64,000 nucleotides of DNA from NCBI RefSeq assembly GCF_000711965.1, contig NZ_JONS01000002.1, forward strand, positions 1 to 64,000, written 5' to 3'. The stretch's first letter is position 1; the number at the start of each line of letters is the position of its first letter. Both the position numbers and the translations under genes were made by a program. The DNA is from Actinomyces israelii DSM 43320 (GTDB lineage: Bacteria > Actinomycetota > Actinomycetes > Actinomycetales > Actinomycetaceae). Shown piece by piece: positions 45,003 to 63,552 of this stretch. A model generated the notes under the pieces. It saw nothing but the letters and a program-made list of their open reading frames with translations. It had not been told where the DNA came from and searched no databases.

Positions 45003-45212
45003 TCGGTCTCCTCTGGTTGCGGAAAGATGTCAGGGCGCCGACCTGCCCGCCACGGGCGCTGGCGCTCCGGCGCCGGGAGAGCACCGCACGCCACCCTACC
45101 CTGCCTCCGGCCAGTGTCACCGGGTCGCGGCTCGGCCGCAACGGGGTATCGGTCACGCCGCCGGGGCCGCGCCGCGAGAGAGCGGGAACGGGCACGCACC
45201 GGCCCCCTTCGC

Positions 45213-45344
45213 CGAGATCGGTCGTATTCCGGCTCGAGATCGGTCCGTTTCCGCACCGAGATCGGTCCGCTTCCGCACCGAGATCGGTCCGCTTCCGCGC
45301 CGAGATCGGTCGAGTTCCGGCTCGAGATCGGTTCCGAGTACCAG
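45213..45344 (+). repeat. Six tandem 22-bp repeats, CGAGATCGGT core
   Basis: Units start at 45213, 45235, 45257, 45279, 45301 and 45323, exactly 22 bp apart. Each begins with invariant CGAGATCGGT, and the first five continue with a variable trinucleotide and TTCCG. In units 3 and 4 the core extends to the palindrome ACCGA-GA-TCGGT. No spacers of unique sequence occur. The array lies about 210 bp upstream of the secY start. Confidence 0.95.
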
Positions 45345-45440
45345 GAGCCCCAAAAATCTCTTCAGTCACACCCGTCCCGTTATGGATTACGGGCCGCTCA
45401 GCTCACCGCGGCCGATCGCAGCCCGGCCCCAGAACCGGAT

Positions 45441-45559
45441 GTCCGTCAGAATGACATTAGAGCTCCTGGGCGCCGTCCCGCTCGACGACCGCCCCTGCAA
45501 TGACGCGGCTCCCCACCGGTGCTCCGAGAGCCCGGGCGGCCAATGTCATTCTGGCGGAC
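45441..45559. repeat. 20-bp inverted repeat pair enclosing 79 bp
   Basis: The left arm (45441-45460, GTCCGTCAGAATGACATTAG) and the reverse complement of the right arm (45540-45559) agree at 18 of 20 positions. They could be two inverted copies of a binding site or the ends of a small element. Confidence 0.8.
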
Positions 45560-45632
45560 ACCCGCCCGCCCCGGAGCCGGCCATCGAGACGGCTGACTCC
45601 GGGGCAACGAGGATGACCGGCAGGCTCCGCGA

Positions 45633-45676
45633 ACCGATCTCGACGCGGAAGCGAACCGATCTCGGCGGAAGGGGCA
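45633..45676 (-). repeat. Two 22-bp repeat units in reverse orientation
   Basis: ACCGATCTCG cores start at 45633 and 45655, again 22 bp apart, with CGGAA-type sequence between. They are the reverse complement of the six-unit array at 45213-45344 and face it across 288 bp. Confidence 0.92.
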
Positions 45677-45855
45677 GCATGGCGCCTCCCGACCCGGGTC
45701 CCGGAACGCCACCGACGACCCCCGCCCCCTCCGGCGAACAGATCCCGACGCCGCCGCGTCGAGAAGCCGGAGCCAGAACCGGAACCTAGACGATTGATTC
45801 CGGGGCGGGACCGAGCCGAGCGCCCGCCCCAACGTCAACGGAGGTTCATCGCATG

Positions 45856-45916
45856 AACGTACCTTTCTCGCATCCTACTGGGGGTAGAGCTCAGTAGGAT
45901 GCGAGAAAGGTACGTT
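45856..45916. repeat. Perfect 25-bp inverted repeat with 11-nt loop
   Basis: The arms 45856-45880 (starting AACGTACCTTTCTCGC) and 45892-45916 are exact reverse complements around GGGGTAGAGCT. As RNA this would be a very stable hairpin. It is less GC-rich than the terminators nearby and lacks a T-tract, so it looks more like a recombination, replication or regulatory element. Confidence 0.95.
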
Positions 45917-45941
45917 GACGTTGCGAAGGTACGTTCACGTT
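45907..45941 (+). repeat. Two 16-bp direct repeats at 19-bp period
   Basis: AAGGTACGTTGACGTT (45907-45922) and AAGGTACGTTCACGTT (45926-45941) differ at one base. The first overlaps the right arm of the 25-bp inverted repeat. A reverse-oriented AACGTCAACG lies at 45831-45840. Confidence 0.85.
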
Positions 45942-46065: not shown

Positions 46066-46165
46066 GAAGTCGTACCCTCACCCACCGGGTCGCACCTCAG
46101 GGGGCGCGGCCGTGCCTTTAACGTACGACCGCTCCCCCTGAGGTACGACCGCGAAGGATGCGACC
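46066..46165. repeat. Cluster of GTACGACC-like sites and an 11-bp inverted repeat
   Basis: GTACGACCGC occurs at 46123 and 46143, with related GTCGTACC, GTCGCACC and GATGCGACC nearby in both orientations. ACCTCAGGGGG (46094-46104) pairs perfectly with 46134-46144. Confidence 0.6.
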
Positions 46166-63223: not shown

Positions 63224-63289
63224 CGAGATCGGTCGAGTTCCGCGTCGAGATCGGTTCACTTCCGGCTCGAGATCGGTTCCGGCTCGGGG
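63224..63289 (+). repeat. Three tandem 22-bp repeats, CGAGATCGGT core
   Basis: Units start at 63224, 63246 and 63268, exactly 22 bp apart, each with CGAGATCGGT; the first two continue with TTCCG. This is the same family as the array upstream of secY. It lies about 200 bp upstream of the candidate pilus promoter. Confidence 0.93.
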
Positions 63290-63542
63290 GCGCCTCCCGG
63301 CACCAGCTCGCTGCGGTCCCACGCGCCGTCGGGACGGCGCTCGCGCCCTGCTCGGCCGCGCGGTGCGTACACAGACGGCGCGTACGCGGGCAGGACGCTG
63401 GAGCGTGATCAATCGCCTCGATCAGGTTCGTCTCCGCCATCCGGCTCCGAGAACCAGCCACCTTGCGCGCCCCATCTTCTCCGAGCCCTGTTCCAGGAGG
63501 CGCACGCATCCCGACCGCCAGCGGTCACGGCTGCCGGTCTGG

Positions 63543-63552
63543 ACCGATCTCG
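63543..63552 (-). repeat. Single reverse copy of the 22-bp repeat core
   Basis: ACCGATCTCG, the reverse complement of the core, faces the three-unit array across 253 bp and abuts the tuf terminator. This mirrors the forward-array/reverse-array layout near secY. Confidence 0.7.

Follow-up and report, generated by a model that had tools for sequence, protein, structure and literature searches.

The array of 22-bp repeats found beside secY in Actinomyces israelii DSM 43320 is, on balance, best read as one copy of a dispersed intergenic repeat family of Actinomyces that works at the DNA level, as a protein-bound boundary site similar to BIMEs, and that spreads as a mobile element. The 4.03-Mb assembly of this genome (G000), which includes the 64,000-nucleotide stretch analysed here (the window), contains 276 dimers of the core-N12-core pattern (146 forward and 130 reverse) and none of a reversed-pattern control in either orientation (0 + 0), which excludes chance for the array. 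Among the papers listed in searches of the open-licence part of PubMed Central, none describes 22-bp arrays in Actinomyces; a description may exist elsewhere.

Located 210 bp upstream of the called start of secY, the array occupies a 1.6-kb gap that separates this gene from rplO, both on the minus strand (Table 1). Its repeat unit, for which Tandem Repeats Finder gave a period of 22 in the forward array, is a CGAGATCGGT core followed by 12 bp. The six forward and two reverse units described in the initial annotation of this DNA are all exact at that period, and the palindrome that it saw in two of the units is there as well, units 3 and 4 reading ACCGAGATCGGT. Forward and reverse cores are separated by 300 bp at their closest; the 288 bp given there fits a measurement that begins where the sixth 22-bp unit ends. 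The window holds a second composite (63224-63552), absent from the initial annotation, which occupies the gap between two minus-strand genes, that of EF-Tu and a large gene whose match to an LPXTG pilin model is weak (E=9.5e-16, 57.7 bits, for a curated cut-off of 95).

Other inverted repeats are found in the rplO-secY gap. One of them, TGTCCGYCAGAATGACATT ... AATGTCATTCTGRCGGACA, has half-sites that start 94-95 bp apart and is itself dispersed, with 12 half-sites in the G000 sample and three paired copies within facing 22-bp arrays. Two more are long, the first of them near-perfect.

Table 1. Positions of the array features and neighbouring repeats in the window
Feature	Positions	Strand	Details
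Pyrimidine leader CCCCCTTCGC	45203..45212	+	gene-facing (outer) end of forward array; leader consensus C-rich then TTCGY (98 array starts)
Forward array, six CGAGATCGGT cores	45213..45332	+	period 22, five 12-bp linkers; exact cores start at 45213, 45235, 45257, 45279, 45301, 45323; Tandem Repeats Finder and core search
300-bp interior between inverted arrays	45333..45632	unstranded	encloses the second dispersed inverted repeat
Second dispersed inverted repeat, TGTCCGYCAGAATGACATT ... AATGTCATTCTGRCGGACA	45436-45458 / 45542-45564
Reverse array, two cores	45633..45664	-	period 22; cores at 45633-45642 and 45655-45664
Reverse-array leader GCGGAAGGGGC	45665..45675	-	GCCCCTTCCGC on minus strand
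Long near-perfect inverted repeat, AACGTACCTTTCTCGCATCCTACTG ... CAGTAGGATGCGAGAAAGGTACGTT	45854-45917
Another long inverted repeat	46088-46150
Second composite, forward array	63224..63277	+	three cores (63224, 63246, 63268)
Second composite, lone reverse core	63543..63552	-	94 bp from EF-Tu gene stop

Anatomy and genomic placement of the arrays

The family was characterised in a 2.45-Mb sample of five genomes (857,796 bases of G000, 600 kb of G016, 200 kb of G009, 400 kb of G015 and 390 kb of G008), with genes called by a codon-usage script of our own and no standard gene finder. Same-strand cores at most 130 bp apart are spaced by 22 (336 cases), 44 (27) or 66 bp (5) in 368 of 371 instances, leaving three others. 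Over 110 units, from arrays seeded on the exact core with two differences allowed in neighbouring cores, identity is 98-100% at each core position, and the 12-bp linkers follow the consensus N4-TTCCG-NNY, with words drawn from a small common vocabulary. The leader, which sits on the outer side, ends in TTCGY after its C-rich part and decays gradually, without a sharp outer end. One leader in G015 is a run of C about 17 long, a possible slippage site.

The orientation of the units follows a strict rule. All 50 regions of the five-genome sample with both orientations read forward then reverse and, when G025 and clade D loci are included, arrays at most 200 bp apart form 45 distinct forward-reverse pairs and no reverse-forward pair, a rule that could partly stem from composites spreading as a single block. 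Facing arrays are separated by preferred distances of 5-7, 16-18, 26-27, 37-38, 47, 57, 81 and 109-111 bp (with others at 10, 71, 79 and 137) and so keep to a helical phase. Uncollapsed, these interdependent gaps give R=0.78 at 10.5 bp (n=33); for gaps above 10 bp with homologous interiors collapsed, a set that still includes two orthologous gaps and two with a common interior, R is 0.68 (n=16, p=4e-4), and a scan of periods from 7 to 16 bp is best at 10.8 (scan-wide p=0.005). Gaps above 25 bp behave likewise (n=12, p=0.006 at 10.5 bp; best period 10.9, scan-wide p=0.022). Since an RNA loop would have no reason for helical phase, the phasing points to the DNA level. Furthermore, in all three tight pairs of G000 whose arms have at least two units, the linkers do not match (5-7 of 12), which argues against a general hairpin role, whereas nine of the ten tight pairs in clade C (G015 and G008) are perfect palindromes, so that hairpins might play a role there. 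RNA folding of the single arrays of the window is unremarkable (z of -1.05 and 0.25).

A distinct motif, TCCACAG / CTGTGGA, which we take to resemble the core of a DnaA box, is enriched inside the facing arrays of G025 and of G015/G008; TCCACA occurs in 9 of 56 inner flanks in G025 and 6 of 32 in G015 (about 0.7 and 0.5 expected) and in none of 162 in clade A.

The arrays are overwhelmingly intergenic. In G000, the core is found 182 times in 160 kb called intergenic, where 100 anagrams of its letters average 0.27, and four times in 694 kb called coding (1.40 for the anagrams); across the genome samples, counts are 2-8 in coding DNA (anagram means of 0.4-1.8) and 9-294 in intergenic DNA. Of the 207 multi-unit arrays in the five genomes, 197 are intergenic, as are 45 of the 55 single cores. 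Among gaps of at least 60 bp, arrays are most frequent between convergent genes (57 of 207, versus 93 of 755 where the genes are co-directional and 26 of 292 where they diverge; convergent versus the rest, p=2e-8). The leader is directed toward a stop codon in 127 of 196 arrays (at a median of 33 bp) and toward a start codon in the other 69 (median 169 bp); in 88 of the 126 regions with a lone array it points at whichever gene is closer (p=1e-5). Two other ideas about placement were discarded: (i) a replication-strand bias, as the 42 forward and 45 reverse dimers of G025 intermingle, and (ii) a transposon with internal genes, as facing arrays 1.7-3.8 kb apart in G025 enclose genes that by eye are of housekeeping type, with no common cargo.

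Distribution, turnover and constraint

The search for 22-bp periodicity across Actinomyces that the initial annotation had proposed singles out 17 of 49 genomes as array-bearing, with a spelling specific to each clade. The exact class pattern matches in 11 of the 49; a degenerate core with one mismatch gives at least 15 dimers in the 17 genomes and at most five in the other 32 (controls 0-2), which makes the array system dispensable for the genus. Dimer numbers range from 0 to 691, the maximum being in G016. At a period that is always 22, the spelling is (i) CGAGATCGGT-N4TTCCG in G000, G009 and G016, (ii) CGAGATCGGG-ACATCCTGACC in G025, (iii) CGAGACCGGT-CGAAAATAGGAG in G008 and G015, (iv) CGAGACCGGG-ACATCGATACCA in G047 and (v) CGAGRTCGGT with NGANRTNACC linkers in G010, G023, G024, G027 and others. 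SecY itself places the genome in Actinomyces, its best named match being A. haliotis (84%) in a search that may leave out records of this or very similar genomes. On a SecY tree that covers 30 of 48 loci and rests on a low-quality alignment (1861 of 2811 columns retained, with G025 only 20% filled), the array label changes five times, compared with 9.7 on shuffles. Family-wide, the exact pattern is found in 11 of 213 genomes, every one of them Actinomyces. Other genera have 0-5 matches per genome when two mismatches are allowed (controls 0-1), and 13 of 389 genomes of the order outside the genus have one or two exact degenerate matches (14 in total, control 1), which we take for background, as they stand alone and are for the most part of the CGAGGC/CGAGGT type. 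Viral contigs searched with two patterns yielded no array copy.

Array positions turn over. Among G000, G016 and G009, the occupied orthologous gaps that share arrays number 1/5, 0/4 and 0/5 in pairwise comparisons, while G015 and G008 (92.5% identity over aligned DNA) have arrays in common at seven of eight; across clades sharing is weak. No single site is therefore needed for a conserved function. Fixed gene partners were considered and rejected, array positions being close to independent between clades (the best p among ten tables is 0.05).

What is kept is the core. At loci orthologous between G015 and G008, the two counts of changes are 18/354 and 0/240 in cores (0-5%, a figure biased low by requiring an exact core in one genome), 58/254 and 35/156 in linkers (22%) and 119/1220 and 108/913 in flanks (10-12%), these counts leaving out the arrays that did not align (15 of 29 in G015 and 2 of 13 in G008). 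Linkers thus change faster than flanks (p=6e-8 and 8e-4), and the modal number of differences in 24 aligned linkers is four (nine cases), which looks more like replacement than point mutation. In G016, six loci of contig C1 (71544, 119712, 232099, 260424, 350095 and 362382) carry one repeated composite, made of a two-unit array, a conserved interior of 109-111 bp and an inverted array of 4-9 units; by eye, most of the six loci also have part of the left flank in common. Two of these composites lie 12 kb apart and have identical interiors, yet one of their arrays differs in how many units it contains and in how these are ordered. Together with the linker differences, these copies indicate that composites are copied and that units turn over faster than by point mutation with cores kept. 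Core-anchored recombination, homologous or site-specific, is the remaining candidate route for this shuffling.

Proposed bound boundary sites and rival readings

On the reading that we favour, each element is a row of 10-bp cores that follow one another at exactly 22 bp, or two helical turns. A pyrimidine leader marks its outer side, which usually faces a gene, and an inverted partner often lies opposite. A putative sequence-specific DNA-binding protein, presumably inherited in the clades that keep arrays, would sit on each core along one face of the helix, and facing arrays would bring two rows of it into alignment. Arrays bound in this way at the ends of transcription units may organise or insulate the DNA, as BIMEs might, and the sites would spread from one intergenic region to another, at times, as the G016 copies suggest, as whole composites. 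A core-bound protein is the simplest account because it explains the core constraint, the fixed period, the phasing and the irrelevance of the linkers; that a protein reads the arrays is also suggested by the two-turn spacing combined with clade-specific spelling. Binding on one DNA face, as put forward in the initial annotation, fits with the period, the core constraint and the 10.5-bp phase alike.

A more ambitious proposal, which we put forward tentatively as a fair way short of probable, is that the arrays form a chromosome-wide code of phased sites. Where transcription units begin or end, a dedicated DNA-binding protein would recognise 10-bp cores that recur at every second helical turn, and facing arrays would be held on one helical face so that two rows of the protein meet. 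In each clade the spelling would co-evolve with the protein, and core-anchored recombination would shuffle the units between cores far faster than ordinary mutation does. If true, bacteria would have a boundary or architecture system of a new kind. A repeat whose spelling varies by clade while period, orientation rule and phasing are fixed offers a natural experiment on how a DNA-binding protein changes in step with its hundreds of sites. Gene regulation in Actinomyces is little known, and the arrays would allow a direct test of whether, when bound by their protein, they insulate transcription units or organise them.

Much of what makes the family look mobile would be equally expected of a neutral MITE- or REP-like repeat, whose cores and period would serve a transposase and bring the host no gain: positions turn over between related species, a composite has been copied in G016, copy number runs from 0 to 691 within the genus and inverted arrays with outer leaders look like the ends of an element. 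We nevertheless consider this unlikely, since linkers and flanks diverge at old orthologous sites whose cores are preserved, which an end to mobility would not predict, and since the leader fades with no sharp outer end. No matching enzyme came to light either. A Y1 transposase of the RAYT type (PF01797) is found in none of the 49 genus genomes (and in 5 of 14 control genomes), a Mu/TnsB-type domain (PF09299), for which none of the 14 controls match, in one of the 49 (G019, which has one dimer and no arrays), and a reverse transcriptase (PF00078) in none of the array-bearing G000, G016, G009, G015, G008, G006, G042, G025 and G011. Rfam at gathering score has no match in the window or in six 20-kb stretches of G015 and G008. 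The preference for stop codons and convergent gaps raises another prospect, that arrays past stop codons, or facing each other at convergent pairs, halt RNA polymerase as hairpins or protein roadblocks. The perfect 32-bp arms of tight pairs in clade C, with matched changes, fit such terminators, as did an uncontrolled test in which strong hairpins were found at 1 of 42 array-bearing ends and 157 of 466 others. That depletion is mostly due to the space taken up by the array and loses significance under fair controls (array-masked, split controls give 14/68 versus 240/872, p=0.26, and 7/68 versus 174/872, p=0.055, for the strongest stems), so that arrays replacing terminators was dropped as an idea. 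As strong hairpins at orthologous ends number 7/24 versus 12/24, as 69 of the 196 arrays face start codons and as the arms in clade A do not match, we regard a role in termination as rather doubtful.

DNA uptake signals that serve natural transformation and, like those of Neisseriaceae, have dialects by clade would account for a short core in hundreds of copies, for its dialects and for inverted pairs near gene ends. Such signals are common inside genes, whereas genes hold almost no copies of the core (4 versus 1.40 expected in G000), and a fixed 22-bp tandem phasing plays no part in the model, which makes it very improbable. The array might finally be what its position in the window suggests, a regulatory element of secY (and tuf). 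An array does lie upstream of secY at 6 of the 30 Actinomyces loci examined, from 48 with SecY (G000, G047, G042, G008, G006 and G015), which belong to three clades and in which the nearest array or a member of it is ~170-215 bp upstream, oriented away from the gene. It is absent at the other 24, among them those of G016, G009 and G031, which are closest on the SecY tree, and hundreds of copies adjoin unrelated genes, which leaves this explanation with next to no credence. The spot is repeatedly used, yet control of secY does not include the array as a conserved component, and the link to secY drawn in the initial annotation is not supported. Of the two outcomes named there as fatal, absence from close relatives and random location is indeed what is seen at the secY locus, while a core scattered at background frequency with no preferred spacing is clearly not. 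A protein-bound boundary site that spreads remains the explanation that we prefer.

Comparison with known systems

The closest likeness is to the BIME and REP sequences of Gammaproteobacteria, which are also short, high-copy and extragenic, often at the 3' ends of genes and in opposed orientations. BIMEs are reported to bind several proteins (PMC2817692), and we infer binding of this type in Actinomyces from core constraint and phasing. Their REP units alternate regularly, whereas units here are in tandem on the same strand, forward then reverse in every mixed region. In one account of REP/REPIN-RAYT systems, the unit is a palindrome of 20-40 bp that carries a terminal GTAG or CGTC tag (PMC3733652); in contrast, the Actinomyces unit is a non-palindromic tandem direct repeat of 22 bp, the consensus of core, linker and flank has no such tag, and none of the 49 genus genomes has a Y1/RAYT gene. 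MITEs are marked by sharp terminal inverted repeats and a target-site duplication; in the Actinomyces family, inverted arrays are present, the outer leader is gradual and pairwise gaps are too diverged for an insertion point to be read. CRISPR arrays differ by their unique spacers, the 12-bp linkers here sharing a small vocabulary. The G000 sample has a separate 28-bp repeat, GTAAACCCCGCGCGAGCGGGGATGATCC, in ~35 copies, which is CRISPR-like and perhaps of type I-E.

For the pattern of clade dialects, the nearest precedent is provided by the published dialects of DUS (PMC3630211). Neisseria DUS, whose receptor is ComP, resemble the family in having a core of roughly 10 bp, clade-specific spellings and inverted pairs, and differ from it in that the Actinomyces arrays are in tandem at 22 bp and intergenic, with only a few coding copies. 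The dRS3/RS (NIME) arrays of Neisseria and other MITE-like repeats are mosaics that occupy intergenic DNA and have short inverted repeats at their bounds. The Actinomyces arrays share these traits, but dRS3 are dispersed inverted repeats rather than 22-bp tandems, and no phage copy of the Actinomyces arrays was found with the two patterns searched. The period itself has counterparts in the 22-bp iterons of plasmid R6K and in the 22-bp transposase sites at the ends of Mu and Tn7, which, like the putatively bound arrays of Actinomyces, are direct protein-binding repeats at about two helical turns. Unlike these, which are confined to one origin or to transposon ends beside the cognate gene, the Actinomyces arrays occupy many gaps along the chromosome.
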